In this document: piece by piece, positions 10,615-26,198 of the stretch | Layout of the letters: each line of letters begins with the position of its first letter | Position numbering within the stretch: the first letter of the stretch is position 1 | DNA from: Acetobacterium woodii DSM 1030 | GTDB lineage: Bacteria; Bacillota; Clostridia; Eubacteriales; Eubacteriaceae | DNA length: 64,000 nt | Assembly (NCBI RefSeq): GCF_000247605.1 | Contig: NC_016894.1 | Coordinates: 806,001 to 870,000, forward strand | Direction of reading: 5' to 3' | The notes under the pieces: generated by a model | Databases searched by the model: none | What the model was told of the DNA's origin: nothing | Seen by the model: only the letters and a program-made list of their open reading frames with translations | Made by a program: the position numbers and the translations under genes

Positions 10615-11403
10615 ATGAAAATAGCTGTAATTCAAATGAATGTAGAATTAAAAAAACTTGACGCAAATTATCGTAAAGCTGAAAGTTGGATTAACAAAGC
10701 CGCTGCGGCGAAAGCCGATGTGGTGGTGCTTCCCGAAATGTGGAGCGGCGGTTTTTTGACTAATGTGATGGCCGAACGTTTAGCTGATGAGGATGGACAA
10801 CGGACAAAAGATTTTCTCGCGAAACTGTCAAAGAAATTACACATCAATATCGTCGGGGGTTCGGTGGCAACAAAGAAAGGGCAGGATTATTTCAATACCT
10901 GTTATGTTGCCAATCGCGAAGGGCGGATCATTGCTGATTATGATAAAGCACATCTTTTTAGTTTTGCCGGTGAAGATAAACGATTTGGGGCAGGGGAGCG
11001 GTTGGTTACTTTTTCGCTTGACGGAATTCCATGTGGCATTATCATCTGTTATGAGGTTCGCTTTCCCGAGTGGTCCAGAAAACAGGCGTTAGCCGGAACG
11101 AAGGTGCTTTTTGTACCGGCTGAATGGCCCCTGAAACGAGTTGGTCACTGGCGTATTTTAAATCAGGCCAGAGCAATCGAAAATCAGATGTTTGTGGTCG
11201 CCGTTAATGGCTGTGGCGAAGCATTAAAAGATCAACAAAATGGCGGAAATTCAATGATTATTGATCCACTGGGAGAGCTGTTGGCAGATGCGGGGACAGA
11301 ACCTGAGGAAAAAATGATTTTGGCTGATGTCGAGCCATCAGAATTGGAAAAAGTCAGGAATAACATGACCGTGTTTTTAGATCGGCGACCAGAGCTTTAC
11401 TGA
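10615..11403 (+). CDS. nitrilase-family carbon-nitrogen hydrolase (omega-amidase/MtnU-like)
   Basis: This 262-residue protein belongs to the nitrilase superfamily. The catalytic triad is visible as Glu41 (LPEMWSGG), Lys111 (YDKAHLF) and Cys145 (IIICYEVRFPE). The C-terminal FLDRRPELY resembles omega-amidase/MtnU-type members, which hydrolyse 2-oxo acid amides such as 2-oxoglutaramate. Exact substrate assignment is inference. The ATG at 10615 follows AAAAGGAGAAAGAC. The HTH regulator gene follows, and the glutamine-synthetase/glutamate-synthase-like operon begins 1.8 kb downstream. An amidase acting on glutamine-derived products would fit that neighbourhood, though common regulation is not shown. 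Confidence 0.85.
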   Translation: MKIAVIQMNVELKKLDANYRKAESWINKAAAAKADVVVLPEMWSGGFLTNVMAERLADEDGQRTKDFLAKLSKKLHINIVGGSVATKKGQDYFNTCYVANREGRIIADYDKAHLFSFAGEDKRFGAGERLVTFSLDGIPCGIIICYEVRFPEWSRKQALAGTKVLFVPAEWPLKRVGHWRILNQARAIENQMFVVAVNGCGEALKDQQNGGNSMIIDPLGELLADAGTEPEEKMILADVEPSELEKVRNNMTVFLDRRPELY

Positions 11404-12989: not shown

Positions 12990-13018
12990 TTGACATAAAA
13001 TTAGCGTCAAGATATAAT
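12990..13018 (+). promoter_or_regulatory. consensus sigma-A promoter
   Basis: TTGACA (12990-12995), a 17-nt spacer and TATAAT (13013-13018) match the consensus at every position. Transcription would start near 13025, about 17 nt before a strong stem-loop. Confidence 0.75.
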
Positions 13019-13041
13019 AAACTCACTAAAAGAGTTGACGA

Positions 13042-13079
13042 AGGCGTCACATCAGGAAACTGATGTGACGCCTTTTTTT
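13042..13079 (+). terminator. strong intrinsic terminator or attenuator just after a promoter
   Basis: AGGCGTCACATCAG and CTGATGTGACGCCT form a 14-bp perfect stem with a GAAA tetraloop, followed by seven T. It would end a transcript of only ~55 nt from the promoter at 12990-13018, or act as an attenuator in front of the permease gene. It may also end the upstream regulator transcript. Confidence 0.85.
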
Positions 13080-13223: not shown

Positions 13224-14639
13224 ATGAACGAAAAAGGAAAGTTAGGATTAGGTAGCGGCGTAGCCATATGTGTGGGACTCATTGTGGCAACGAGTTGTTT
13301 GTTATCACTGGGTGTCGGAATGGGATTAGCCGGCAAAGCGTTTATCATTCCGTTAATCGTTGTTGTTATTTTAAATGCCTTTATCGCGTTATCATTTTCA
13401 GAATTGCATACATTGATGCCAAATGTCGATGGCGGCGTGGGTCAATATTCGCTGGTTGGTTTAGGACCGGTGGCATCGATGATTTCAAATATTTCAGCTT
13501 ATGTAATTACGATGGTATTTGCTTCATCCGTTGAAATTGCGATGTGTGGGTTGGTATTAAATGAATTTTTTCCACAAATTCCGGCCGTTGCCATTAGTGT
13601 AATTGTGCTTGTGGTGATTGGGATTGTCAATCTTTTTGGAGTAGACTTATTCTCGAAGGTCCAAAACCTGGTCGTAATCCTGTTGATTGGCTCATTGATT
13701 GGAATGGGCATTATCAGCTTCTTTAAATTAGGAACCGGAACCGTGATTACAGCAGCCCAGCAAACAGCTCCAGCAATTACTGGAATTGGCGGGTTGATGG
13801 GTTTATCAGCGATTGCATTTTGGTTATTTATCGGGGTTGAATTTATTATTCCGGTGGCCAAAGATTTAAAGAATCCCAAACGTGACGTATTGCTTTCGAT
13901 GATATTGGCGTTAATATTGCTGTTTGTGGTACAGGCGGTATTGGGCGTTGGGATGACAAATTATGTCAGTCTGGATGTCCTGGCTTCAAGTGCAATGCCA
14001 CATATGGTTTTTGCCGAAGCGGTATTAGGAGATTTTGGGAAAGCCTGGATGGGAATTGTTACGCTGTTAGCCGGAATTAGTACCTTAAATACGGTCTTGG
14101 CAAGCAGTGCCAGAATTATCTGTGGAATGTCTGAAGAAGGTATGATGCCAAGTATTTTCAAAAAAATCAACAAAAAAAATGTCCCTGTTTTTGGACTGGC
14201 ACTGATGATGCTTGCTGATTTTGGGATTGTAGTAACCGGTTTTGCACAGTCAAATGCATTAACAAATTTGATTCTGGCAGCATCGTGTTTCTGGTTAATG
14301 TCGTATATTTTAACTCATATTAATGTGTTAGTGCTGCGTAAGCGATATCCGAATATGGAAAGAAACAAAAAGCTGGTTTTGATGGGAATTCCACAAATTA
14401 TTGGTATCTTAGGCAATATCTATATGATTTGGAATATTAGTTCGGACCCGGCTTCGCGACTGGCCATTTATCAAGTGTGCGGCGTATTGTTTGCGATCTT
14501 GGTAACGTATGCTCTGATCTGGGTGATTGGCGTTATGAAAGTAAAACCATTTGAACCAGTCGACATTGACAAAGTTAACAATGATGCAATCGAATTTGAA
14601 AAAGGAAACAAGAAAAGATTGGTTGAAGCAACCGAATAA
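13224..14639 (+). CDS. APC-family amino acid/amine permease
   Basis: This 471-residue protein has about twelve predicted TM helices and begins LGSGVAICVGLIVATSCLLSLGVGMG, the glycine-rich TM1 of the amino acid-polyamine-organocation superfamily. The conserved loop FIPVAKDLKNPKRDV, seen here as EFIIPVAKDLKNPKRD, is also present. It takes up amino acids or amines; the specific substrate is not readable. GGAGAAGCTTATT precedes the ATG. It is the first gene of a compact operon; the next start codon is 14 bp after its stop. Its position suggests it imports the substrate of the glutamine-synthetase-like ligase that follows. Confidence 0.88.
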   Translation: MNEKGKLGLGSGVAICVGLIVATSCLLSLGVGMGLAGKAFIIPLIVVVILNAFIALSFSELHTLMPNVDGGVGQYSLVGLGPVASMISNISAYVITMVFASSVEIAMCGLVLNEFFPQIPAVAISVIVLVVIGIVNLFGVDLFSKVQNLVVILLIGSLIGMGIISFFKLGTGTVITAAQQTAPAITGIGGLMGLSAIAFWLFIGVEFIIPVAKDLKNPKRDVLLSMILALILLFVVQAVLGVGMTNYVSLDVLASSAMPHMVFAEAVLGDFGKAWMGIVTLLAGISTLNTVLASSARIICGMSEEGMMPSIFKKINKKNVPVFGLALMMLADFGIVVTGFAQSNALTNLILAASCFWLMSYILTHINVLVLRKRYPNMERNKKLVLMGIPQIIGILGNIYMIWNISSDPASRLAIYQVCGVLFAILVTYALIWVIGVMKVKPFEPVDIDKVNNDAIEFEKGNKKRLVEATE

Positions 14640-14653
14640 TTGGAGGTAACATG

Positions 14654-16018
14654 ATGGGAAATGATCTATATACAGGGATGGAAAAACAAACAATAACGTC
14701 CATTAAAAAACAAATTGAAGAAAATAATGTAAAAATGATCCGTTTGGAATATACCGATATCTTGGGAATTAACCGCGGTAAACTGATGCCGGTTTCGATG
14801 ATTGATGAAATTTTTGGCGATGGCATTGCGTTTTGTACAGTCAGTTTGGCGATGGCATTTAATAACGATATCGTGAACTCAAAATATTTTTCCGAAACCA
14901 ATGATGATATGAAAGTGATTGGCGATCCGTCTACTTTTGTCATTTTGCCGCATTGTGATAAAACGGCTTTTGTGCTAGGTGAATTATATTATATGGATGA
15001 ACCGATGTTACAGGCACCACGAGAGTTTCTGAAAAAAATGGTTCAGGAATATCATAAACTGGGATTGGATCCAATTGCGGCCAGTGAGCTGGAATTTTAT
15101 GTTTATAATAAAGGTGAAAGTGGATATCAGGATCCTTACACCAAACAGCCCTGTACCTGTTATACCGCCAATAAGCGGATTGACCCGAAACGTTTTTTAT
15201 ATAAGTTGACCGAGACGTTCGAAACCATGGGTTTTAATGTTTTGTATATGAATCATGAATATTATCCGGGCCAATTTGAGTACAATTGGAAACATTCAAA
15301 AATTGTTCGAGCCGCCGATGAAAGTTCTGTCTTTAAAGCCTTGAGTAAAGATATTGCCGAAACCAATGATTTGATGGTGACTTTTATGGGGAAACCCAAA
15401 AATGCATCCGGTGGGAGTGGGTGTCACTTTCATATTTCTTTTAACGATATAGAAACAGAAGATAATGTCTGTCACGATAAAACCAAAGAAAATGACCTGG
15501 CCGATGTATTACGCTATTTTATTGGCGGTGTCATTAAACATGCCAAAGGTCTGACTGCTTTTTTAGCCCCGACGGTTAATTGTTATAAGCGTTATCAACC
15601 CGATTCTTTTGCCCCCATTTATATTGGTTGGGGTTACGATAATCGAACGACGTATATTCGCGTCCCTCAAGAACGGGGCAAAGCAACACGGATGGAAATT
15701 CGGGCCGGGAGTGCGGCATCAAACGCTTATCTGGCATTAGGGGGGATTTTGGCCGCAGGACTTGATGGCATCAAAAATAAGATTGAGCCGCCAGAGGTTG
15801 TTACGACTGATCTTTATCATGATACCGAAAAACAAAACGAACAAGTGCCGAAAAGCCTATTTAGCGCCTTGAAATGTCTGGAAGAAGATACCTGGCTGAT
15901 GGAACATGTCGGCAAAGAATTAGTGGATGTTTTTTTACAGCTGAAACGAAAAGAAATTGAAGAATATAAAAAATATGTTACCGACTGGGAATGGGACACC
16001 TATTCTTACCATATTTAA
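14654..16018 (+). CDS. glutamine synthetase-like gamma-glutamyl ligase (GlnT/GMAS/PuuA type)
   Basis: This is a 454-residue enzyme of the glutamine synthetase superfamily. The N-terminal beta-grasp part (RLEYTDILGINRGKLMPV) and the catalytic core are intact: SELEFYVY and HEYYPGQFEYN (metal-binding Glu residues), GSGCHFHISF (His), NCYKRYQPDSFAP, GYDNRTTYIRVP (Arg) and RMEIRAGSAASNAYLA. The C-terminal TDWEWDTYSYHI resembles the GlnT/PuuA/GMAS groups rather than housekeeping GlnA, which has an adenylylation loop here absent. The likely reaction is ATP-dependent ligation of an amine to the gamma-carboxyl of glutamate. In methylotrophs the homologous gene sits beside the same split glutamate synthase genes as here. 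Start ATG 14654 is 7 nt after GGAGG; ATG 14651 is also possible. The amine is unknown. Confidence 0.85.
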   Translation: MGNDLYTGMEKQTITSIKKQIEENNVKMIRLEYTDILGINRGKLMPVSMIDEIFGDGIAFCTVSLAMAFNNDIVNSKYFSETNDDMKVIGDPSTFVILPHCDKTAFVLGELYYMDEPMLQAPREFLKKMVQEYHKLGLDPIAASELEFYVYNKGESGYQDPYTKQPCTCYTANKRIDPKRFLYKLTETFETMGFNVLYMNHEYYPGQFEYNWKHSKIVRAADESSVFKALSKDIAETNDLMVTFMGKPKNASGGSGCHFHISFNDIETEDNVCHDKTKENDLADVLRYFIGGVIKHAKGLTAFLAPTVNCYKRYQPDSFAPIYIGWGYDNRTTYIRVPQERGKATRMEIRAGSAASNAYLALGGILAAGLDGIKNKIEPPEVVTTDLYHDTEKQNEQVPKSLFSALKCLEEDTWLMEHVGKELVDVFLQLKRKEIEEYKKYVTDWEWDTYSYHI

Positions 16019-16076
16019 ATCATAAACATTTAAGTCAGCATTAAAATATGGAGGAATAACAAGAAGGAGAAAAACA

Positions 16077-16973
16077 ATGTGTGGAATAGCGGGAATTATT
16101 AGTAAAGAACCAATGGATGTTTCATCCAATCTGTTGGGAATGTTAGGTTTAATACAACATCGGGGACCGGATGCCAGTGGGATTGCTATTTTCCCGAAAG
16201 ATGAGAAGATAACGTTACGAATATCGATGGATAAAGAAGAACGCGTGGCCGAGATTAGAGAAATTATCGGTAATTACGGGAAAATTTGCAATGAAAAATT
16301 GATTGCGGCGGGCGAAAGTATTCCGCTGGCTGAATATCGCCTCGAAATGGATAAGGATCAGGTTCAGCCACTTCATTTTGCAATAAATAAAGCCGAAGGT
16401 TTAGCAATCCACTCATTAGGTGATGGGATTAAGGTTTATAAAGAAGGCGGCTGTTTGCAAAATCTGACCGGAAAACATGAAATTGAAACAAAACTCTGTC
16501 GCCATGGCATCGGACATGTGCGAATGGCGACCGAAAGCGTTGAAGATATTAATGCGGCTCATCCCTTTGTATCGCCGTTTTATCCGGAGTTGGCGATCGT
16601 TCACAACGGGCAATTTACCAATTATTTTAAAATGAGGCGTTTTCTGGAGTCCAAAGGGGTTAAGTTTAAAACGATGAATGACTCTGAAGCGGCCAGTCAT
16701 TTAATTGCTTATGCGATGAACCAAAATGGCGGAAATTTGCAGGAGTCCCTGATATATGCGGCAGACCAACTCGATGGCATTTATTGTATTATTGCCGCAA
16801 CCGAAAATCAAATTGGTTTTGTTAAAGACAAGCTGGGAATTAAACCATTACTTTTAGTGGAATCCGATAAGTATATCATGTTAGGTTCTGAACAAATCGA
16901 ATTTTCGGCCGTTGACGAAGACCTTTTTGCAGAAGAAATGGAACCGGGAGAGGTGCGCGTATGGAATATTTAG
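16077..16973 (+). CDS. class II glutamine amidotransferase (GltB N-domain-like; GlxB/MgsA type)
   Basis: This is a 298-residue stand-alone class II amidotransferase. It begins MCGIAGIISK, so Cys2 becomes the N-terminal nucleophile after Met removal. The family motifs HRGPDASGIA, GIGHVRMATES and AHPFVSPFYPELAIVHNGQFTNY are present. It corresponds to the first domain of glutamate synthase and to GlxB/MgsA of the rhizobial glx and methylotroph mgs loci. It should hydrolyse a gamma-glutamyl amide and pass ammonia or an amine to the FMN subunit. The 3' end overlaps the next gene by 13 bp. It is well separated in sequence from the full-length GltB at 36731-41320. Confidence 0.88.
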   Translation: MCGIAGIISKEPMDVSSNLLGMLGLIQHRGPDASGIAIFPKDEKITLRISMDKEERVAEIREIIGNYGKICNEKLIAAGESIPLAEYRLEMDKDQVQPLHFAINKAEGLAIHSLGDGIKVYKEGGCLQNLTGKHEIETKLCRHGIGHVRMATESVEDINAAHPFVSPFYPELAIVHNGQFTNYFKMRRFLESKGVKFKTMNDSEAASHLIAYAMNQNGGNLQESLIYAADQLDGIYCIIAATENQIGFVKDKLGIKPLLLVESDKYIMLGSEQIEFSAVDEDLFAEEMEPGEVRVWNI

Positions 16974-17683
16974 ATTTAGCCAATGTTGAAAATGAACGGG
17001 TTAATTACCTGATAAAAGATAAATTAAAGGAATCTCACGATCTGGTGCTTCAAAATGTTAACTCCATGCACAATATCTGTGCCGGTTTATCGGGGACCTG
17101 TCATGTGACGGTTGAAGACAGCACTGGTTTGTATACCGGCAGTTTTTTGGAAGGACCAACGCTGAGAATTAAAGGAAATGTTGGTTGGTACGCCGGAGAT
17201 GACATGATGTCCGGTGAATTGATTGTCGAAAAAAACACCGGCTGCAATATTGGCGCCTATATTAATGGGGGAAATATCGTCATTTATGGCAATACCGGAA
17301 GTCGTGTTGGTTACGGGATGAAAGGCGGTAATATTATTGTCTGCGGATCGGCGGGAAGATGGGCCGGAATGATGGCCATGGGCGGTGATTTGATTGTTTT
17401 AGGAAGTCTTGGTAAAGAAGCGGGAGAATCAATGTATGCCGGGAAAATTTTTACCAGCGACCCGGAAGCCGAAACAAAAATGGGCGGTAATGTTTTTTAT
17501 GACAGCATCACCCCAGCAGAAATAGAAAAGCTGAATGGCTTATTTGCACAATATCAAATAGCCGCCGAGGCAAAAGACTTTCATGTTATTCGTCCGGTAC
17601 TCAGCGGGAGACATGAGTATGTCTTATTTAAACCGGATTTAAAACCGGAATTAGCACGAAAATATTCAGTAAAGCGAGGATGA
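16961..17683 (+). CDS. GXGXG-domain protein (GltB C-terminal domain-like; GlxC/MgsB type)
   Basis: This 240-residue protein is a right-handed beta-helix built of repeated Gly-x-x-Gly-x-x-Gly turns (GNVGWYAGDDMMSGELIV, GNTGSRVGYGMKGGNIIV, GSAGRWAGMMAMGGDLIV). This is the structural C-terminal domain of glutamate synthase as a separate subunit. It has no catalytic residues of its own and holds the amidotransferase and FMN subunits together. GGGAGAGG precedes the ATG by 8 nt inside the upstream gene. Its stop codon at 17681-17683 ends 5 nt before the next preferred start, so the three split glutamate synthase genes are tightly coupled. Confidence 0.88.
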   Translation: MEYLDLANVENERVNYLIKDKLKESHDLVLQNVNSMHNICAGLSGTCHVTVEDSTGLYTGSFLEGPTLRIKGNVGWYAGDDMMSGELIVEKNTGCNIGAYINGGNIVIYGNTGSRVGYGMKGGNIIVCGSAGRWAGMMAMGGDLIVLGSLGKEAGESMYAGKIFTSDPEAETKMGGNVFYDSITPAEIEKLNGLFAQYQIAAEAKDFHVIRPVLSGRHEYVLFKPDLKPELARKYSVKRG

Positions 17684-17688
17684 TGGGC

Positions 17689-18993
17689 ATGAGTGAGAAA
17701 AAACAAGTACCGATCCACAATGCGCCAAAGGCGACCTGGAACAAAGAAACATTATCAGAAATTGACTATAAAGCGGCAAATGGCAAGTATCGAATTCGTG
17801 GCTGTGGCACCCCAAGACCGATGCCCAAATTCGATGACTTATTAATCTTGCCATCACAATTGACCCGAATGCCGATTGATACCTATCGCGAAGACTGTGA
17901 AACACGAACGGTATTAGGGGCCCGATTTGCTAAAAAACCATTGGTTATCGAAACCCCGGTGATGATCGCCGGGATGTCTTATGGCGCTTTAAGCAAAGAA
18001 GCTAAAATTGCGCTGGCGAAGGCAACGCAATTAGTGGGAACTGTGATTAGCAACGGCGAAGGTGGGTTATTACCGGAAGAAATAGAGAATTCCTACCGTC
18101 AGTCGATTCAGATTCTGGCCAGTCGGATGGGTTTTACCCGAAGAAATATGGAAGTCGCGGATATGCTGGAAGTGCTTTATGGGATTGGTGCCAAACCCGG
18201 TTTATCCGGTCATTTGATGGGTGAAAAAATAACCAAAGAAATTTCTGAAATGCGACAAATACCGATCGGCATTGATTTGCATTCGCATCCGCGGGCCGGG
18301 GACGCTTTTGGTGCCGATGACATGATTGTCAAAATGCAGCAACTGCGCGAACTGACCGAATGGGAAACACCGATTTTTTGTAAAATTGCCGCCGGACGAG
18401 TTCGTGATGACATTAAAATTGCGATAAAACTTGGTTTTGATGGCATTATTCTCGATGGCTGCAGTGCTGGAACCGGGGCCGCCCCAGTAATGGCTGCCGA
18501 TCACCTGGGGATACCAACGATGCCGGCCTTAGTGCAGGCGGTTAGAACTTTAGAAGAAATGGGCGTCAAAGAGGAAATGAGCCTGATTGTCTCGGGCGGG
18601 ATTACCAATGGTGCTGATCTCGCCAAGGCATTAGCGATTGGTGCGGATGCAGTGGCAATTGGAACCGCGGCGATGGTAGCAATGGGCTGTCGGGTTTGTA
18701 TGAACTGCCAGACGGGGAAATGTGCTTTTGGTATCGGGACTCAAGATCCCGAATTGCGCGCGAAGCTGGATATTGATGAAGCGGCTGAACGGGTGGCCAA
18801 CTATATTAAAGCGATTACGGCGGAAGCGGTATTGCTGGCTAAATCAGCAGGAAAAACAAAACTAAAAAATCTGGAACGGGAAGACTTACGGGCATTGACT
18901 CTGGAAGCTTGTGCAATGACCGGGATTCCGCTAGTCGGGAGCGATCTGGTGATTGGTAAAGGATTTGGATTTTCCGCAGATAACGGCCTCTAA
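17689..18993 (+). CDS. FMN-binding glutamate synthase-like subunit (GlxD/MgsC type)
   Basis: This 434-residue protein matches the FMN/(3Fe-4S) central domain of GltB: GMSYGALSKEAKIALAKA, ISNGEGGLLPEE, ILDGCSAGTGAAP, SGGITNGADLAKALAIGADAVAIG. Its cysteine cluster CRVCMNCQTGKC is suited to an Fe-S centre. In the N-methylglutamate synthase of methylotrophs the matching subunit reductively joins an amine to 2-oxoglutarate. No gltD-like NADPH subunit lies beside it, so the electron donor is unclear and may be ferredoxin. I prefer the ATG at 17689, 8 nt after GAGGA; starts at 17680 or 17683 would overlap the ribosome site. Confidence 0.88.
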   Translation: MSEKKQVPIHNAPKATWNKETLSEIDYKAANGKYRIRGCGTPRPMPKFDDLLILPSQLTRMPIDTYREDCETRTVLGARFAKKPLVIETPVMIAGMSYGALSKEAKIALAKATQLVGTVISNGEGGLLPEEIENSYRQSIQILASRMGFTRRNMEVADMLEVLYGIGAKPGLSGHLMGEKITKEISEMRQIPIGIDLHSHPRAGDAFGADDMIVKMQQLRELTEWETPIFCKIAAGRVRDDIKIAIKLGFDGIILDGCSAGTGAAPVMAADHLGIPTMPALVQAVRTLEEMGVKEEMSLIVSGGITNGADLAKALAIGADAVAIGTAAMVAMGCRVCMNCQTGKCAFGIGTQDPELRAKLDIDEAAERVANYIKAITAEAVLLAKSAGKTKLKNLEREDLRALTLEACAMTGIPLVGSDLVIGKGFGFSADNGL

Positions 18994-19059
18994 AAATAAG
19001 AATATAAAGTAATGAACAAATCGAGACAATCGGAAACGAGGCAAGTGGGAGGCAGAAAG

Positions 19060-19377
19060 ATGCGTATTGAAGAACACCCGATACTGGGTAAAATAGAAAA
19101 AGGAAAAACGGTTATTTTTGAATTTGACGGGCAGCCAATGGAAGGTTACGAAGGCGAACCGATTGCTGCGGCCTTACGGGCAGCCGGCATCATGACCCAT
19201 CGGCATACGTTAAAATATAAAAAACCGCGCGGAATTTTTTGCGCAATTGGTCGATGCACCGATTGTGTGATGATTGTTGATGGAAAACCAAATGTCAGAA
19301 CCTGTGTGACACCTTTATTGGCCGGTATGAAGGTACAGACGCAGGATGGTGTGACAGCAAAAGCAGAATCCAACTAG
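19060..19377 (+). CDS. (2Fe-2S) ferredoxin-like subunit of an amino-acid dehydrogenase (HcnA/SoxA N-terminal type)
   Basis: This 105-residue protein has the fold and cysteines of the Fer2_4 family: CAIGRCTDC and VRTC, four Cys placed for one 2Fe-2S cluster. The same sequence forms the N-terminus of sarcosine oxidase alpha subunits and is a separate small subunit in hydrogen cyanide synthase and D-hydroxyproline or proline dehydrogenases. The ATG at 19060 follows GGGAGGCAGAAAG; a 16-residue extension upstream is unlikely. It lies 12 bp before the FAD/Fe-S subunit gene, with which it would form an electron-transfer chain. Confidence 0.85.
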   Translation: MRIEEHPILGKIEKGKTVIFEFDGQPMEGYEGEPIAAALRAAGIMTHRHTLKYKKPRGIFCAIGRCTDCVMIVDGKPNVRTCVTPLLAGMKVQTQDGVTAKAESN

Positions 19378-19389
19378 GAGATAAGCGAA

Positions 19390-20976
19390 ATGAAACGAGT
19401 TGAATTGATTGTAATAGGCGGTGGACCGGCTGGTTTGAGTGCCGCCATCGAAGCCGCTAAAACCGGAATGGACGTGGTTGTTTTTGATGAAAATGCTAAA
19501 CCAGGCGGACAGTTATTTAAACAAATACATAAATTTTTTGGATCAAAAGAACATAAAGCCAAAATAAGAGGTTATAAAATAGGCCAGGAACTTTTGGCGG
19601 AAGCGCAAGAAACGGGCGTTAAAGTCGTTTTAAAGGCAACGGTTATTGGTATTTATGAAGGTAAAGAAGTAACCGTAATGATTGGTGATGCCATTGAACA
19701 TTATAAAGCTGATACCATCATCGTGGCGACCGGGGCTTCGGAAAATATGGTGACTTTTCCGGGTTGGACATTACCGGGCGTGATTGGTGCCGGAGCGGCC
19801 CAAACGATGATGAATCTCCATGGCGTGAGGCCCGGCCAAAAAGTTTTGATGCTGGGTTCCGGCAATGTTGGATTAGTTGTTAGCTATCAATTGCTGCAAG
19901 CCGGGTGTGAGGTCGTGGCGCTGGTGGATGCGGCCAAACAGGTTGGTGGTTATGGCGTTCATGCCGCCAAGTTGGCCCGTTGCGGGGTTAACTTTTATCT
20001 TTCGCATACCATTGTCAAAGCAGAAGGGGAAGAACAGGTTACCGGTGTTACCATCGGAGCAGTCGATCAAAATTGGAAAGTGATTCCCGGTTCGGAGAAA
20101 CAGTTTGAGGTCGATACCATCTGTCTGGCCGTCGGTTTATCACCGATGTCGCAATTGCTTAAGGTTGCCGGGTGCAAGATGATCGACGATCCTAAACGCG
20201 GGGGAACGGTGCCAACGGTTAATCAATATGGTGAGACGTCAGTAAACGGTATTTTTGCCGCCGGTGATGTTTCCGGCATTGAAGAAGCCAGTTCAGCCAT
20301 GATTGAAGGACGTATTGCCGGTGCTGCCGCTGCATACGCCTTGGGTTATTTAACTAAAGAAGCGTTTGAAATGAAATTTAAAAACAGTGAAGATGCGCTT
20401 AACGCCCTCAGACAAGGCATGTTTGGACCTGAAAATAAAGGTCGAAAAGATTTAACGATGACTGAAGAAGGCATTTTATTATCCCAATCGTTACTAAAAA
20501 AGGGATATCTTGCTGAACCGGAAGTTACGGCTTTTCCAGGGGTTAAAACGAAAATAAAGGGAATTCATCCGGTTATTGAATGCACCCAGAATATTCCCTG
20601 TAATCCCTGTCAGGATGCCTGTGTCAAAGGATGTATAAAAATTGGTGATCATATCACAGCGTTGCCGATTGTTGGGGAAGATTCAGCGTGTAGCGGTTGT
20701 GGGATGTGTGTGGCAGCTTGTTCCGGACAAGCGATCTTTCTGGTCGATGAAAACACCGAAACGGGATACGCCAATATTACGATTCCCTATGAATTTTTAC
20801 CGTTACCTGAAAAGGGGGAACTGGGAAAGGCGCTTGACCGAAGTGGAACAGCCGTGTGTCAGGCGGAGATTGTGGGCATAAAAAGTGCCAAAGCCATGGA
20901 TCACACGAACCTGTTAACGATGAAAGTACCGGCAAATATGGCGATGACCGCGCGATTTTATAAGGCAATGGGGTGA
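19390..20976 (+). CDS. FAD/NAD(P)-binding Fe-S oxidoreductase, alpha subunit of amino-acid dehydrogenase
   Basis: This is a 528-residue flavoprotein. The dinucleotide-binding motif VIGGGPAGLSAAIEAA is at residues 6-21, a second Rossmann motif LGSGNVGLVVSYQLL is central, and NGIFAAGDVSG is the FAD-pyrophosphate motif. Unlike HcnB or the sarcosine oxidase alpha subunit, it carries a ferredoxin-like insert near residues 395-450 with eight Cys (CNPCQDACVKGC and CSGCGMCVAAC), enough for two 4Fe-4S clusters. Such an insert is found in anaerobe versions of the family and suggests electrons leave towards ferredoxin or a similar low-potential carrier. It sits between the 2Fe-2S and BFD-like subunit genes, 13 bp and 4 bp away. 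Confidence 0.85.
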   Translation: MKRVELIVIGGGPAGLSAAIEAAKTGMDVVVFDENAKPGGQLFKQIHKFFGSKEHKAKIRGYKIGQELLAEAQETGVKVVLKATVIGIYEGKEVTVMIGDAIEHYKADTIIVATGASENMVTFPGWTLPGVIGAGAAQTMMNLHGVRPGQKVLMLGSGNVGLVVSYQLLQAGCEVVALVDAAKQVGGYGVHAAKLARCGVNFYLSHTIVKAEGEEQVTGVTIGAVDQNWKVIPGSEKQFEVDTICLAVGLSPMSQLLKVAGCKMIDDPKRGGTVPTVNQYGETSVNGIFAAGDVSGIEEASSAMIEGRIAGAAAAYALGYLTKEAFEMKFKNSEDALNALRQGMFGPENKGRKDLTMTEEGILLSQSLLKKGYLAEPEVTAFPGVKTKIKGIHPVIECTQNIPCNPCQDACVKGCIKIGDHITALPIVGEDSACSGCGMCVAACSGQAIFLVDENTETGYANITIPYEFLPLPEKGELGKALDRSGTAVCQAEIVGIKSAKAMDHTNLLTMKVPANMAMTARFYKAMG

Positions 20977-20980
20977 TGAC

Positions 20981-21322
20981 ATGAATAAGATAATCGATCG
21001 TTCAATTGATTTAGGTCCATATTGGCCACAGGAAGACGATGATTTAATCATTTGTCGATGTGAAGAAGTTACTAAAGGTGAAATCAGAAAAGCTGTTCAT
21101 GAAGGAATGGTTACCTTAACTGAAATAAGACGGTATCTGCGAACCGGGATGGGTTTATGTCAAGGACAGACCTGTGCAAAACTGGTTAAAAATATCGTGG
21201 CCCGGGAACTCAAAATTGCGCCCAATGAATTGGAGAGCGCGGTATCGCGGGCACCGGCTCGGCCGGTAGAAATGCGCGTTTTGGCAAATGAAGTAATAAC
21301 CGGAGGTGAAAACCATGAATAA
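20981..21322 (+). CDS. BFD-like (2Fe-2S)-binding subunit
   Basis: This 113-residue protein contains the bacterioferritin-associated-ferredoxin-like motif: IICRCEEVTKGEIRKAV followed by GMGLCQGQTCAKLV, so Cys-x-Cys plus Cys-x4-Cys for one 2Fe-2S cluster. In heteromeric sarcosine, octopine/nopaline and D-hydroxyproline dehydrogenases this domain is usually fused to the C-terminus of the alpha subunit. Here it is a separate protein encoded 4 bp after the alpha subunit gene. Its 3' end overlaps the following flavoprotein gene by 8 bp, showing that all four dehydrogenase genes are one transcription and translation unit. Confidence 0.85.
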   Translation: MNKIIDRSIDLGPYWPQEDDDLIICRCEEVTKGEIRKAVHEGMVTLTEIRRYLRTGMGLCQGQTCAKLVKNIVARELKIAPNELESAVSRAPARPVEMRVLANEVITGGENHE

Positions 21323-22439
21323 TAATTCCGATGTTTTAATTATCGGGGGTGGGGTCATTGGTTGTGCAACCGCATATTATCTGGCTAAACAAGGCGTTAA
21401 TGTCACCGTTCTTGAAAAAAAACAGATTGGTGAAGGCGGGTCGAGCCGAAACGGCGGCGGGGTTCGGCAATCGGGTCGTGATCCGCGCGAATTACCGCTG
21501 GCAATGGCGGGGATTAAAAACTTATGGCCAACGCTTTCGGAAGAATTGGGGATGGATGTCGAATATTACAAAAAAGGAAATTTGCGTCTGGCTAAAACCG
21601 CGGGACACATTAAAATTTTAGAAGGTTTGACAGAGCGGGCGGTCGCCAAAGGGCTAGATGTCAAAATGATCGATGCCCAGGAAGTCAAAGCAATCTGTCC
21701 TTATTTATCCGATGAGGTGATTGGCGCCAGTTGGTGTGATACCGACGGTCATGCCAATCCGATGCTAACAACGCTGGCTTATTATAAAAATGCCCGACGA
21801 CTCGGGGTTCGGTTTATAACTGGCGAAAACGTGGTTGAAATTAAAAAAATCAGAGGAAAAGCCCGACAGGTGATTACCGAACAAAACATTTATGAGGCGG
21901 AACAGATTATTCTGGCTGCCGGTTATGAGAGCCGGGCGATTGCCAATACCGTGGGGATTGATATTCCCATGAATCGGGTATTGCTGGAAGCCCTGGCAAC
22001 GGAACCACAGGGAAAAATGTTTGAACAGATGCTGGGGACTGCGGAAGCTGATTTTTATGGCCATCAGAGCACCCACGGATCTTTTGTTTTTGGCGGTTCT
22101 TCGGGGTTTGATGCCTATACTTCAAATTTTGATACGCCGATAAATAACAGTCAAACAGCTGCTTGTATTTGTCGGGGAATCATCGGCTATTTTCCAATAT
22201 TGGCAGATGCAAAAATTGTTCGAACCTGGGCTGGATGGATCGACGAATGCGCTGATCACGTACCGGTGATCAGTTTTGTCGAAGAGGTACCGGGGCTTAT
22301 CCTGGCTTGTGCTTTTACCGGACATGGGTTTGGAATATCACCGATGGTAGGAACCCTCTTAGCGGAAATGATTGTGGATGGGAAACCATCCCTTGATTTA
22401 TATGAATTGCGTTATGATCGCTTCAAAACTAAATTATAA
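21315..22439 (+). CDS. FAD-dependent amino-acid oxidoreductase, beta subunit (DAO/SoxB/HcnC type)
   Basis: This is a 374-residue flavoprotein of the D-amino-acid oxidase family. It begins DVLIIGGGVIGCATAYYLAKQG (split motif, FAD-binding GxGxxG at about residues 11-16), has the flavin-contact SSRNGGGVRQSGRD, and a C-terminal AGWIDECADHVPVIS and FTGHGFGISPMVG. Such subunits oxidise secondary or D-amino acids (sarcosine, N-methylglutamate, proline, hydroxyproline) to imines. The true start is the ATG at 21315 after GGAGGTG. It is the substrate-oxidising partner of the three preceding electron-transfer subunits. The exact amino acid is unknown. Confidence 0.87.
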   Translation: MNNNSDVLIIGGGVIGCATAYYLAKQGVNVTVLEKKQIGEGGSSRNGGGVRQSGRDPRELPLAMAGIKNLWPTLSEELGMDVEYYKKGNLRLAKTAGHIKILEGLTERAVAKGLDVKMIDAQEVKAICPYLSDEVIGASWCDTDGHANPMLTTLAYYKNARRLGVRFITGENVVEIKKIRGKARQVITEQNIYEAEQIILAAGYESRAIANTVGIDIPMNRVLLEALATEPQGKMFEQMLGTAEADFYGHQSTHGSFVFGGSSGFDAYTSNFDTPINNSQTAACICRGIIGYFPILADAKIVRTWAGWIDECADHVPVISFVEEVPGLILACAFTGHGFGISPMVGTLLAEMIVDGKPSLDLYELRYDRFKTKL

Positions 22440-22450
22440 GGAGAAATAAC

Positions 22451-22852
22451 ATGGATTTTAAACGAATAAATTATTCATCGGGGGCACCGCTGGAAGACAA
22501 AGCGGGCTATAGCAGAATTGTCAAAGTGGGACCTTTTGTTTACGTCGGGGGCACAACTTCGGTACAGCCCGACGGAACGGTGTTTGGCGAAGGGGATCCT
22601 TATGCGCAAACAAAATACGTTTTGGAAAAATTGCTTAAATTAATGGCCGAAGCGGGTTCAAAAGCCAGTGAAGTGGTACGGGTTAAAGTTTATGCCACGG
22701 ATATGAGTCATTGCGGCGAAATTGTTCGGGCCTATTCGGAATTTTTTAAAGAGATTCGGCCATTGTGCACCGTTGTTGGGACATCGGGATTAAATCGACC
22801 AACTCAGTTGGTCGAAATTGAGTTGGACGCAATCATCGGGGCCGCAATTTAG
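22451..22852 (+). CDS. ridA: RidA-family enamine/imine deaminase
   Basis: This 133-residue protein belongs to the YjgF/YER057c/UK114 family: GPFVYVGGTTSVQPDG, VLEKLLKLMAEAGSKASEVVRVKVYATD and CTVVGTSGLNRPTQLVEIELDA, where the conserved Arg and Glu occupy the usual active-site places. RidA proteins hydrolyse reactive imines and enamines. Its place as the last gene, 11 bp after the amino-acid dehydrogenase beta subunit, fits a job in clearing the imino product of that enzyme. AAGGAGAAATAAC precedes the ATG. Serine dehydratase, whose 2-aminoacrylate product is a classic RidA substrate, follows 290 bp downstream. Confidence 0.9.
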   Translation: MDFKRINYSSGAPLEDKAGYSRIVKVGPFVYVGGTTSVQPDGTVFGEGDPYAQTKYVLEKLLKLMAEAGSKASEVVRVKVYATDMSHCGEIVRAYSEFFKEIRPLCTVVGTSGLNRPTQLVEIELDAIIGAAI

Positions 22853-22874: not shown

Positions 22875-22951
22875 TTGACAAAATCAAAAATCTCAAATAA
22901 TATTATAATATTGATACGATCAGGCGAACATTTAAACCAGATGTTCGCCTG
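22875..22951 (+). promoter_or_regulatory. promoter-like sequence followed at once by a stem-loop
   Basis: TTGACA (22875-22880), a 17-nt spacer and TAATAT (22898-22903) resemble a promoter. CAGGCGAACAT (22921-22931) and ATGTTCGCCTG (22941-22951) form an 11-bp perfect stem soon after. There is no T-tract, so termination is doubtful. The rest of the 290-bp gap to sdaAB shows no gene. Confidence 0.4.
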
Positions 22952-23144
22952 AAACTATTTTAATATCATTCAGATAAGGGCTTTGGCTAAAATAGCTATA
23001 TGGTAAAAATGAATGTTCCAAAGGAATCGCTTTATTTGTGATTGGAAAACAAATCTAGCAGATGAAAGTTAAAAGCAGTTAAAATTATCTGAAACGACGA
23101 AAACCGGGTAAAATCAGTTTGAAATATAAATAACGGAGGAAGTC

Positions 23145-23813
23145 ATGAGTATATTTGATATTGTCGGGCCGATTATGGTTGGACCATCCAGTTCGCATAC
23201 AGCGGGAGCGGTTAAAATTGGCTATCTTTCGAAAAAACTAATGGGTGAAAAAATAAAGTCGGCGGAAATTTATTTACATGGTTCGTTTCGGACAACCGGA
23301 AAAGGCCATGGCACGGATCGGGCCATTGTGGCGGGATTGTTGGGGATGAAACCGGACGATATTCGCATTCCTGATAGTTTTGAATTAGCGGCGCAAGAAG
23401 GTATGACGTTTAAATTTGAAGGGATTAATCTGCGTAATGCTCATCCCAATTCGGTTAAATTAATTCTAAAAGGCGTGTCGGGAAGAGAACTGGAAATTTT
23501 AGCTTCATCTTTAGGCGGAAGTCGGATTAAAATCTGCCAGATTGATGGCTTAGAAGCAAATTTTTCCGGCGATTATCCAACTTTGGTTGTTCATAACCTT
23601 GATCAGCCAGGTCATGTCACCGAAGTGACATCAATGTTGTCACACAAATCGGTTAATATTGCCACGATGCAGCTTTATCGAAATCATCGCGGTGGTGATG
23701 CCGTTATGGTATTGGAATGTGACCAGGAAATATCACCGGAATCGATTTTATGGTTGGAACATTTAGAAGGAATCAGAAAAGTAACGTATCTCAGTCTGGA
23801 GGAAGCACCATGA
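23145..23813 (+). CDS. sdaAB: L-serine dehydratase, beta subunit (iron-sulfur type)
   Basis: This 222-residue protein begins SIFDIVGPIMVGPSSSHTAGA, the hallmark of the beta chain of anaerobic L-serine dehydratase, with HGSFRTTGKGHGTDRA next and a C-terminal ACT domain (LVVHNLDQPGHVTEVTSML, about residues 148-220) that probably binds an amino acid effector. With the alpha chain it converts L-serine to pyruvate and ammonia. GGAGGAAGTC precedes the ATG. The alpha subunit gene overlaps its stop codon. The enzyme would feed serine, made from glycine and methylene-tetrahydrofolate, into pyruvate; a link to the preceding operon is inference. Confidence 0.94.
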   Translation: MSIFDIVGPIMVGPSSSHTAGAVKIGYLSKKLMGEKIKSAEIYLHGSFRTTGKGHGTDRAIVAGLLGMKPDDIRIPDSFELAAQEGMTFKFEGINLRNAHPNSVKLILKGVSGRELEILASSLGGSRIKICQIDGLEANFSGDYPTLVVHNLDQPGHVTEVTSMLSHKSVNIATMQLYRNHRGGDAVMVLECDQEISPESILWLEHLEGIRKVTYLSLEEAP

Positions 23814-24679
23814 GTTTTACATCATTAAAGGAAATTGTTAGTCTGTCAAAATCATCGGGCAAACCCTTTTGGGAAATTGCCATGGAAGAAGAAATGCGTG
23901 ATAATCAGATCACCCGGGAGATTGCGCTGGAAAAAATGCGAAATCTCCTTGAGGCGATGAAAGCTGCTGATAAAAACTATGATGAAAAATTAAAATCGCC
24001 CAGTCAACTGGTTGGTGGAGATGGCGAAAAAATAACTCAGGCGCGTCTGAATAAAACTATCTTTTGCGGCGATTTTATGGGACAAGTAATGGAAAAAGCC
24101 ATAAAAATGGGTGAGTCTAACGCTTGCATGAAACGAATAGTCGCAGCCCCAACCGCAGGTTCTTGCGGGGTGATTCCGGCAGTTTTGTTAAGTTATCAAA
24201 AAGAACATCAAATTGATGAAGCAAAAATGTTGCAGGCCTTGTTTGTGACTGGCGGGATTGGTCAGGTTATTGCTCATCGGGCCTCGATTTCGGGGGCGAT
24301 TGGTGGTTGTCAGGCCGAAATTGGATCAGCCAGTGCAATGGCGGCCGGGGCAATGGTTTATCTTGCCGATGGCGATGCCGATGCGATTGTTCAAAGTGCG
24401 GCATTGGCATTAAAAAGCCTGTTGGGACTGGTTTGCGACCCGGTCGCCGGTTTGGTCGAAATCCCTTGTGTTAAACGAAATGTGATTGGGGCATTTAATG
24501 CCTTGGCGAGTGCCGATATGGCATTGGCCGGAATTTGCAGTCAAATTCCGCCCGATGAAGTAATCGATGCGATGCGTTCAATTGGCGATGTTATGCACAG
24601 CACTTTGAAAGAAACCGGCGAAGGCGGCGTTGCCGGAACGCCAACCGGCATCCGTATTGCTGAAGCATTAAAACAATAA
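23810..24679 (+). CDS. sdaAA: L-serine dehydratase, alpha subunit (4Fe-4S)
   Basis: This 289-residue protein carries the Fe-S ligands of the enzyme in CMKRIVAAPTAGSCGVIPA and CDPVAGLVEIPCVKRN, and the conserved EIGSASAMAAG, all intact. Those cysteines hold the catalytic 4Fe-4S cluster that binds serine. The start is the ATG at 23810, preceded by TGGAGGAAGCACC and overlapping the sdaAB stop (ATGA). A longer frame back to 23750 lies inside sdaAB and is not credible as the start. A strong terminator follows. Confidence 0.94.
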   Translation: MSFTSLKEIVSLSKSSGKPFWEIAMEEEMRDNQITREIALEKMRNLLEAMKAADKNYDEKLKSPSQLVGGDGEKITQARLNKTIFCGDFMGQVMEKAIKMGESNACMKRIVAAPTAGSCGVIPAVLLSYQKEHQIDEAKMLQALFVTGGIGQVIAHRASISGAIGGCQAEIGSASAMAAGAMVYLADGDADAIVQSAALALKSLLGLVCDPVAGLVEIPCVKRNVIGAFNALASADMALAGICSQIPPDEVIDAMRSIGDVMHSTLKETGEGGVAGTPTGIRIAEALKQ

Positions 24680-24727: not shown

Positions 24728-24896
24728 GATGGCAGAGCAGAGCGAAAAGAAAAAATAAATAAAAGAATATTTGGGGTAGATCTGTTATTAAATAAATATG
24801 AGGGTACAAATACTACTGTAATAAACAACTGCGTAATTTCATATTAATCGTAGTATGATGTATGCAGTAAACGATTCCAAAAGGAGGAATAGTGAA

Positions 24897-26198
24897 GTGA
24901 AGAAAATGTCGAAATTGATGGCGTTGTTACTGGTGATGTTGATGGTATTGATGCTGATACCCGCATCAGCTTTTGCCGCTGAAGCGGTTCAGGAAGAACC
25001 AACCCTGGTTGTATTAGCGGTTGATGGGGGGGCGGCTGATGAAATCTTGACGACCGCAGTCGAAACACCGGCAGTCGAAACACCGGCAGTCGAAACATCG
25101 ACAGTCGAAACACCGGCAGTTGAAACACCGGCAGTTGAAACACCGGCAGTTGAAACACCAGCGGTTGAAACACCAGCGGTTGAAGCACCAGTAGTGGAAG
25201 GTTTGGCGGCTACGGAATCAGCCGTTCCAGTTGTCGCAGCGCCAGTGGTTGAAACCCAGGCGACTGAGCAAGAAGGAATTGAGGTTAAGGCCGTTCCAGC
25301 GTTGGGTTTATGGCGAGATTCGACTACTTTTATTGATGTGCTGCTTAATGCCATTGGGGCTGATTATTCATATGATGCAGTTACCAATGCATTGACACTC
25401 AATGATTTTGTTGGTCGGGAAATTGATGCTACCGATATGGGTAGCAATTTTGCCATGATTCTCAAGGGCACAAATATCGTGGCAACTGATATTGACAGTG
25501 CTATTGATGTGATTGGAAATTTGACAATAAGTGGAGACGGTGAACTGACAGCGATTGGTCAACACGTGGGCATTCATGTCTTAAATGGAGATATGGTGAT
25601 TAATGATGGTGGTATACAAGCAATAGCAATGGCAGATGTAGATGATGCCTACGGTATTCTGGTTGAAAATGGCAATTTAACAATCAATGACGGTTATATT
25701 GATGCGACAGCAATTAATACGGGAATTGGTCAAGCTTTTGGGATCTGGGCCGACAATGATCTGGTTGTTAATGGCGGTAATATTGATGTAGTTACCGATA
25801 CGGTCAGCGGACCGACTATTGGGATTGGTGCTGGCGATGATGCTATCTTTAATGGTGGATATACGACTGTCCGATCAAGTACCGAAACAGGTGTTGCAAC
25901 AGCATTGTTGGCAGATAGTTGGGTTATTATTCGTGGTGGAATTTTGGATCTTCAGGCTTTAGGTGGCGATGATCCATTAGCAATTTACGGTGCGCAAGGT
26001 GTCTATATCAGTCCGGAGTATGGTGATGTCGATCTTACTGCATCTCATTTGTATCTGGAACCACACTATAGTCAAGCTTCAACCAACCCTAAAACCGGTA
26101 GGCCGGATATGTCTCAGAGTGCATTAATGGCAGTAATGGGATTATTAGCCCTATTGGGGACAGCGTATCTAATTAAGCGAAAAAACGTTAATGCATAG
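24897..26198 (+). CDS. cell-wall anchored surface protein with VETPA repeats
   Basis: This 433-residue secreted protein has a signal peptide (VKKMSKLMALLLVMLMVLM, cleavage likely after ASAFA). Nine pentapeptide repeats of VETPA type follow, then a domain of about 260 residues rich in short Asn/Asp/Gly turns (GDMVINDGG, GNLTINDGY, NDLVVNGGN) that suggests a right-handed beta-helix, as in some carbohydrate-binding surface proteins. The C-terminus has NPKTG, a hydrophobic helix (ALMAVMGLLALLGTAYL) and IKRKN, a sortase sorting signal. I choose the GTG at 24897, 9 nt after GGAGG; an ATG further upstream would precede the ribosome site. Function is unknown; surface binding or adhesion is a guess. 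Confidence 0.82.
   Translation: MKKMSKLMALLLVMLMVLMLIPASAFAAEAVQEEPTLVVLAVDGGAADEILTTAVETPAVETPAVETSTVETPAVETPAVETPAVETPAVETPAVEAPVVEGLAATESAVPVVAAPVVETQATEQEGIEVKAVPALGLWRDSTTFIDVLLNAIGADYSYDAVTNALTLNDFVGREIDATDMGSNFAMILKGTNIVATDIDSAIDVIGNLTISGDGELTAIGQHVGIHVLNGDMVINDGGIQAIAMADVDDAYGILVENGNLTINDGYIDATAINTGIGQAFGIWADNDLVVNGGNIDVVTDTVSGPTIGIGAGDDAIFNGGYTTVRSSTETGVATALLADSWVIIRGGILDLQALGGDDPLAIYGAQGVYISPEYGDVDLTASHLYLEPHYSQASTNPKTGRPDMSQSALMAVMGLLALLGTAYLIKRKNVNA
25059..25193 (+). repeat. nine tandem 15-bp repeats encoding VETPA
   Basis: The unit is GTYGAAACACCGGCA with small variation (VETST once, VEAPV last). It lies in the region between signal peptide and folded domain and is probably a flexible, Pro-rich wall-spanning stalk that can change length by slippage. 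Confidence 0.9.

Follow-up and report, generated by a model that had tools for sequence, protein, structure and literature searches.

The 64,000-nucleotide stretch of Acetobacterium woodii DSM 1030 analysed here (contig NC_016894.1, positions 806,001 to 870,000; hereafter the window) contains, on the + strand at positions 13224-22852, an operon of ten genes, neighbours of which overlap or lie at most 66 bases apart. They encode a permease, a ligase, the glutamine amidotransferase (GATase), GXGXG and FMN subunits of an MgsABC-like trio, the four subunits of a dehydrogenase, and a Rid-family protein (Table 1). We propose, with a probability of roughly 0.55, that the function of this operon is the import of an amine and the oxygen-independent release of its nitrogen, with glutamate as the carrier. 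Judged by its genes, the operon appears to be a new variant of the N-methylglutamate kind. A first-pass annotation of the same DNA had described nine contiguous genes with a comparable function; all the genes it listed are present on one strand, but their number is ten. Its interpretation is partly supported, in the sense that the operon is real and conserved and that the logic ascribed to it is largely right.

The reactions that we infer are the following. The ligase would join the amine to the gamma-carboxyl group of glutamate, with ATP being spent, and the MgsABC-like trio would then shift the amine to the alpha position, yielding an N-substituted glutamate. The four-subunit flavin/Fe-S dehydrogenase would oxidise the N-C bond on the amine side, giving an imine that would yield glutamate and an aldehyde, and the nitrogen of the amine would end up in glutamate. 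In sister loci, an enzyme of the ornithine-cyclodeaminase family (OCD) would stand in for the first two steps, probably through an NADH-dependent coupling of the amine to a keto acid. We consider an amine larger than methylamine to be the probable substrate and nitrogen supply to be the probable role of the operon.

Conservation and distribution of the cassette

A search of the genome collection with the ligase returned nine loci. Five of them have the full set from ligase to Rid in an unchanged order and belong to Anaeromicropila populeti, a Lachnoclostridium metagenome-assembled genome (MAG), two near-identical Syntrophomonas MAGs and Halanaerobium polyolivorans; the four remaining ones (L037, L040, L042 and L043) end at contig ends. 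A second genome of the window's genus has a sixth complete copy (L100). For the gene order in other anaerobes, a search suggested by the first-pass annotation, the outcome is thus that 6 of 10 loci besides the window have it intact, the other four being cut by contig ends. The order ligase-GATase-GXGXG-FMN-2Fe2S-FAD-BFD-DAO-Rid is found in all seven intact loci (the window and six others), which represent four families, and such conservation is far beyond chance. The permease lies outside this fixed core: that of Syntrophomonas is just 36-37% identical to the window's, and no permease gene turned up next to the cassette of Halanaerobium.

The cassette is rare and scattered. An FMN-subunit orthologue was found in 2 of 19 genomes of the window's genus and, at E<=1e-200, in 3 of 398 genomes of the phylum, the window's genome being counted in both cases. 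Searches around the other carriers returned only already-known genomes: 1 of 344 for the order that includes Anaeromicropila, 1 of 198 for the phylum to which the Spirochaetaceae locus belongs, 2 of 63 for the Syntrophomonas class and, at E<=1e-105, 4 of 101 for the sample of the Halanaerobium phylum, two of these four being of the bacterial microcompartment (BMC) type. Among the matches listed from open-licence PubMed Central titles and abstracts, none describes this operon; a search of the same literature for an anaerobic or acetogen N-methylglutamate route led nowhere, and for N-ethyl- or N-alkylglutamate only the term 'gamma-glutamylethylamide' occurs among the matches listed.

The ligase is neither GmaS nor an ordinary glutamine synthetase

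The ligase was aligned with other proteins of the glutamine synthetase (GS) fold, 26 in total, including the solved GmaS of Rhodovulum, and the clade of the window's ligase in this set has nine members. According to the GmaS study (PMC7948447), GmaS does not have the ammonium-binding Asp50' and flap Glu304 of GS, and its Asp177, Glu186 and Arg312 are named as catalytic. In the clade of the window's ligase, Asp50' is replaced by Ala or Cys in all nine members (Cys in the window) and the flap Glu by Phe in eight and Leu in one (Phe in the window); all three GSI rows have Asp and Glu at these positions. Two residues with a part in the catalysis of glutamine synthetase are thus missing from the window's ligase. 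The nine members retain GmaS residues Lys30, Tyr147, Glu179, Glu186, Asn188 and Arg312. Gln175 and Asp177, which are kept in 9/9 GmaS-type rows, are Tyr and Asn throughout the window's clade, and with Phe in place of Trp300 as well, the window's ligase does not carry the GmaS signature.

In the ligase tree, the nine window-type rows form one clade (100/99), as do the GmaS rows (100/99) and the GSI rows (100/99). The joining of these clades is weak (GmaS with GSI, 88/57), and six rows are on long branches. In approximately unbiased (AU) tests, a tree in which the window's clade is made to join GmaS is worse by 23.7 log units (p 0.0096), and one in which it is made to join GSI is worse by 22.2 log units (p 0.0013). 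Because both forced groupings are rejected, we place the ligase in neither group; it resembles an amine ligase whose pocket is different. GmaS sensu stricto is ruled out by the AU test, and an ordinary GS/GOGAT (glutamine synthetase/glutamate synthase) system by residues and trees. Hence, the earlier description of the ligase as GMAS/GlnT-like was right in setting it apart from GS, which has the ammonia residue, but the enzyme belongs to a clade of its own; the grouping with ordinary glutamine synthetases, named there as evidence that would speak against the idea, was tested and is the one rejected at p 0.0013.

A further GS-like ligase, with Tyr and Cys at the positions of Asp50' and the flap Glu, is encoded elsewhere in this genome (L099, 8353-9744; G000:C1, ~774 kb), where it adjoins a C45-family acyltransferase/hydrolase. 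It is possibly a second amide ligase of this genome.

An Mgs-like trio

The FMN subunits of the seven cassette loci group together (100/100) within an 18-row clade (98/97), which further contains six proteobacterial MgsC/GlxD rows, three BMC-linked rows and two from other Bacillota. Outside this clade are nine glutamate-synthase-type rows, three second FMN subunits of BMC loci, and L049. A single FMN clade of the window, MgsC and L048 was not rejected by the AU test (p 0.35). The GATase retains the Cys start and the HNG motif. The window has a three-part MgsABC with an FMN subunit of the MgsC clade, which agrees, as far as mgsABC is concerned, with the earlier statement that this half of the operon has the parts of gmaS-mgsABC. 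There is moderate support for an FMN subunit that is Mgs-like rather than glutamate-synthase-like.

A four-subunit dehydrogenase

As the reference alpha chain we used the 987-residue SoxA-like (MgdC) chain of a Rhizobium N-methylglutamate cluster. Dehydrogenase subunits 1-3 align in order to its residues 10-100, 170-414 and 520-584; the alignment ends at residue 584 of 987, and the folate half gave none, barring two matches of 7 and 13 residues. Judging from these alignments, the dehydrogenase is a sarcosine-oxidase alpha-beta core that has been split into four genes and has no folate half. The SoxD and SoxG families gave no Pfam match among the ten genes. The enzyme thus has none of the three marks of MgdABCD (folate-binding alpha half, SoxD and SoxG), as the first reading of the DNA had already stated. 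The two added 4Fe-4S sites noted there were also borne out at the level of motifs: Cys motifs of this type, starting at residues 398 and 434 of the window's alpha subunit, are present in all eight copies inspected. They suggest one-electron transfer, and the electrons may go to ferredoxin.

The catalytic DAO-type subunit is 26% identical to the SoxB-like chain of the Rhizobium cluster. Among solved chains, the one closest to it is 1y56_B, which is listed as 'sarcosine oxidase' and is probably the beta subunit of a proline dehydrogenase from an archaeon. The DAO-type subunit carries an Arg-X-Trp motif (RTW), regarded in PMC4575208 as a putative FMN site of flavin opine, hydroxyproline and proline dehydrogenases; the flavin opine dehydrogenases act on N-substituted amino acids. 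The combination found in that family, a DAO subunit with Arg-X-Trp, an FAD alpha subunit and a [2Fe-2S] gamma subunit, is present in the window. The dehydrogenase is present in 15 of the 19 genomes of the window's genus searched.

Exchange of partners beside one dehydrogenase

A second set in the same genome (L093) contains a DAO subunit 73% identical to that of the window, a Rid gene and a permease 62% identical to the window's, and has an OCD-family protein in place of the ligase and the Mgs trio. The best model for this protein is NF004848, 'tyramine oxidase subunit B', with 592 bits against a cut-off of 362; it stays below the cut-offs of SbnB (179), alanine dehydrogenase (149), the ornithine cyclodeaminase family (136) and ornithine cyclodeaminase (65). 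The substrate of SbnB, its second-best NCBIfam model, is presumably an N-substituted glutamate.

A search of 120 relatives yielded 33 dehydrogenase copies in 22 genomes; 23 of the 33 copies were examined, including those of the window, L093 and L100. In a set of 30 loci, which includes near copies and is a non-random sample, ligase and Mgs accompany the dehydrogenase in 7 and OCD does so in 21; 2 loci (L095, cut by a contig end, and L155, with an aminotransferase) have neither, and no locus has both. The best DAO tree requires two partner changes, with one being sufficient in 2% of 200 bootstrap trees, and a single clade of the Mgs-linked DAO rows is rejected (p 0.0008); therefore, pairing of this dehydrogenase with the two loading systems has probably happened repeatedly. 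Relatives of the window's organism apparently keep the enzyme that cuts and combine it with another one for loading. Read in this way, ligase plus Mgs and the OCD protein would be exchangeable means of loading an amine onto an amino-acid carrier, from which the dehydrogenase would then release an aldehyde and the amino acid. The simplest product that both loading systems could have in common is an N-substituted amino acid. This exchange also lowers the likelihood of a possibility raised by the first-pass annotation, namely that the dehydrogenase has nothing to do with what the ligase makes.

The Rid protein

The Rid gene accompanies the cassette in all seven intact loci. At the position where two of the three printed PDB chains have the canonical Arg, which we take to be Arg105 of RidA, the window's protein has Cys; the nearest chain, 3i7t, has Thr, and Arg is absent from this position in 12 of 12 aligned rows. 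Rid proteins without the canonical Arg are not known to have the usual imine deaminase activity. The conserved Arg of the RidA imine deaminases is missing here, which weakens the former view that RidA clears the imine.

Neighbouring genes that hint at the amine

The 119-aa proteins beside the permeases of OCD loci belong to the P-II family (2 of 2 tested) and point to a function in nitrogen supply. In L094, L169 and L171 the same set is accompanied by polyamine-type ABC genes (PotABCD-like; 246 bits on the PotD model, whose cut-off is 582) and by a gene for an iron alcohol dehydrogenase (Fe-ADH). Five plasmid loci of aerobes were opened of 25 listed from 764 matching records: OCD-RidA-DAO is present in 5/5, an APC permease in 3/5 stretches and an aldehyde dehydrogenase in 3/5. 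In L046, an Mgs-type cluster lies inside a microcompartment locus together with a ligase-like protein, PduL, acetate kinase, an RnfC-like protein, shell proteins, an opine-dehydrogenase-family protein (nearest solved chain 1bg6) and an acetaldehyde dehydrogenase of the acetylating type (676.6 bits against a cut-off of 620.1). Taken together, these neighbours fit the conversion to an aldehyde of an amine larger than methylamine.

Two groups of loci deserve separate mention. L044, L045 and L046 (G260, G011 and G097) are microcompartment-type loci containing an Mgs-type enzyme with two FMN subunits, the Pfam content being taken from L046 only, and are possibly an undescribed amine-using microcompartment; in the literature on microcompartments that combine an opine dehydrogenase with a glutamate synthase, none of the matches listed names opine dehydrogenase. 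The Bacillota loci L047 and L048 contain a ligase with the full GmaS signature, the Mgs trio and a DAO gene, and L047 also contains ETF subunits and an ammonium transporter; they are N-methylglutamate-like sets whose dehydrogenase is of the ETF type, similar in this to the Cupriavidus plasmid locus L061.

Genes and control elements in and around the operon

The features are listed in Table 1. The start of the first [2Fe-2S] gene is most likely the one given there, behind GGGAGG; the open reading frame from 19012 is probably too long. The regulator-like protein had no NCBIfam or Pfam match at the thresholds used, and its AlphaFold model is poor (mean pLDDT 57.6). A homologue lies immediately 5' of the permease in L035, L036, L037 and L100; none was found in L038, L039 and L041. 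Both hexamers of the promoter-like site are also present in L100. The first hairpin is strong and begins ~20 bases past this site; its region and T run are largely kept in L100 (two sequences compared), and it may act as an attenuator of the operon or be a short RNA that belongs to it. The second hairpin is probably the end of the operon. A scan of the window with Rfam gave 0 matches at gathering thresholds.

Table 1. Features of the operon and its control region (window positions)
Feature	Position	Strand	Remarks
Regulator-like protein, 490 aa	11482..12954	+	Upstream of operon
Sigma-70-type promoter-like site	12990..13018	+	12/12 consensus letters; consensus match only
Terminator-like hairpin and T run	13040..13075	+	Between promoter-like site and first gene
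APC-family permease, 471 aa	13224..14639	+	PF13520/PF00324
GS-fold gamma-glutamyl ligase, 455 aa, predicted amine ligase	14651..16018	+	PF00120
Class II GATase subunit, MgsA-like, Cys2 start	16077..16973	+	PF13522; MCGI start, HNG motif
GXGXG subunit, MgsB-like	16961..17683	+	PF01493
FMN subunit, MgsC-like	17680..18993	+	PF01645; tree
[2Fe-2S] dehydrogenase subunit (Fer2_4)	19060..19377	+	PF13510; aligns to MgdC 10-100
FAD/pyridine-nucleotide-type alpha subunit, 528 aa	19390..20976	+	PF07992; two added 4Fe-4S-type motifs
BFD-like [2Fe-2S] subunit, sarcosine oxidase alpha A3-like	20981..21322	+	PF04324, PF17806; aligns to MgdC 520-584
DAO-type flavoprotein, predicted catalytic, 377 aa	21306..22439	+	PF01266; GTG start 21306, ATG at 21315; Arg-X-Trp motif
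Rid-family protein, 133 aa	22451..22852	+	PF01042; Cys in place of canonical Arg (PDB alignments)
Terminator-like hairpin	22920..22952	+	

A nitrilase-family amidase at 10615-11403 (NF033621, 148 bits vs a cut-off of 355) adjoins the regulator gene and occupies the same place in L100 (76% identical). Past the hairpin 3' of the operon are genes for the beta and alpha parts of L-serine dehydratase (23145-24679), which are probably unrelated to the operon because none was found in the stretches L035, L036, L038, L039, L041 and L100. The protein predicted at positions 24855-26198 contains a long VETPA repeat and, ahead of a hydrophobic C-terminus, the motif NPKTG; in this it resembles sortase-anchored surface proteins.

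Discussion

Several observations weigh against the use of glutamate as an amine carrier by this operon. Asp177 of GmaS, which according to PMC7948447 deprotonates the amine, is Asn in the window's ligase. Support for an Mgs-like FMN subunit is only moderate because forcing the cassette rows together with seven glutamate-synthase-type rows gives a marginal p of 0.038 in the AU test; the glutamate synthase (GltS) rows were labelled by length and similarity, without annotation, and the program warned of long branches in this tree. Arg-X-Trp is also present in SoxB-type rows and is thus not specific. The starred branches of the DAO tree force just one partner change, the OCD proteins could act after rather than before the dehydrogenase, and the name 'tyramine oxidase subunit B' comes from a database and is absent among the literature matches listed. 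Finally, the Rid protein is without its canonical arginine, and the window's operon contains no aldehyde-processing gene.

A true N-methylglutamate pathway in which the dehydrogenase has been replaced, converting methylamine via N-methylglutamate into formaldehyde or methylene-folate for the one-carbon route, seems unlikely to us. It would agree with the FMN subunit in the Mgs-like clade and with the genome having no MtmB match (the control, Methanosarcina acetivorans, does match), and hence no known pyrrolysine route for methylamine. The same result rules out, for monomethylamine, the contrast with corrinoid methyltransferases drawn in the first-pass annotation. However, the ligase falls outside the GmaS clade (p 0.0096), Gln175/Asp177 are replaced in 9/9 members of its clade, and the dehydrogenase has no folate half. 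The earlier focus on methylamine does not hold. An ammonium transporter is present in 4 of 8 GmaS-type loci viewed (L047, L061, L076 and L077) and was not seen in L048, L058, L059 and L060, whose gene lists are incomplete, whereas the window's operon has an APC permease; the presence of an APC permease also in the GmaS-type locus L048 weakens this argument. We consider it similarly improbable that the compound carried is an amino acid or a diamine, with an opine-like N-carboxyalkyl glutamate as the product and a flavin opine dehydrogenase as the enzyme acting on it. The resemblance of the DAO subunit to the opine, hydroxyproline and proline dehydrogenase group, the opine-dehydrogenase-family protein of the BMC locus and the PotABCD-like genes of L094, L169 and L171 would fit such a route, and APC permeases often carry amino acids; but amino acids can be deaminated without ATP, and the Fe-ADH and acetaldehyde dehydrogenase beside sister sets point to aldehydes.

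Still more doubtful is a dehydrogenase that acts on proline or another free amino acid, with an unrelated ligase, an OCD that makes proline from ornithine, and operon halves that are mere neighbours. OCD and proline dehydrogenase make a plausible pair, in line with the probable identity of 1y56_B, but the two halves occur together in 7/7 intact loci of four families, ligase plus Mgs and OCD are mutually exclusive beside one dehydrogenase in the 30 loci seen, and the OCD protein scores far better on NF004848 (592 bits) and SbnB (179) than on the ornithine cyclodeaminase family (136) or ornithine cyclodeaminase (65) models. A GS/GOGAT variant for nitrogen assimilation next to an HCN-synthase-like amino-acid dehydrogenase is very improbable: both halves are similar to these enzymes at the family level, but the GS residues are lost, the FMN subunit lies outside the glutamate-synthase-type rows, and the grouping of the ligase with GS is rejected (p 0.0013).

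The removal of an amine's nitrogen with glutamate as the carrier might be one case of a general anaerobic strategy, a broader view that we advance tentatively and hold to be less probable than the role proposed for the operon itself. Two exchangeable loading modules, an ATP-driven one (ligase and Mgs) and an NADH-driven one (the OCD-family enzyme), would feed a four-subunit dehydrogenase that is confined to alpha-amino acids and releases an aldehyde and the amino acid, and a third version, in a microcompartment with opine dehydrogenase, would make acetate and ATP. To our knowledge, little is understood about how anaerobes use primary amines apart from corrinoid methyl transfer and the ethanolamine route that depends on cobalamin. 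If our view is correct, a trick known from aerobic methylotrophs would be a single instance of a wider amine chemistry that needs no oxygen and is assembled from exchangeable modules, of which this genome would carry two versions, and proteins labelled 'tyramine oxidase subunit B' would gain a testable function.

Parts of the operon resemble several known systems. With the putrescine Puu pathway (PuuA, PuuP) it shares a GS-fold gamma-glutamyl amine ligase and an APC permease, although the permeases are 20% alike over 276 residues; the Puu pathway has no Mgs step, and its amide is hydrolysed at the end. The OCD-RidA-DAO loci (NF004848) likewise have DAO and Rid beside an amine-linked label, but in the plasmid loci the DAO belongs to a different clade, no ligase or Mgs adjoins, and the APC permeases are not close to that of the window. 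Flavin opine dehydrogenase, D-hydroxyproline dehydrogenase, HCN synthase and the archaeal alpha-beta-gamma proline dehydrogenase (PMC4575208) have in common with the window a DAO subunit with Arg-X-Trp, an FAD alpha subunit and a small [2Fe-2S] subunit; in the window, BFD is a separate gene and alpha has two 4Fe-4S-type motifs, the comparison being one of domains and motifs. The N-methylglutamate pathway (GmaS, MgsABC/GlxBCD, MgdABCD) shares a ligase, a three-part Mgs with its FMN subunit in the MgsC clade, and a dehydrogenase of the sarcosine oxidase family. The window's operon differs from it in a ligase that forms its own clade with Tyr175/Asn177, in a dehydrogenase with two added 4Fe-4S motifs and neither the folate half nor a SoxD- or SoxG-type gene, and in the possession of a Rid gene and an APC permease.

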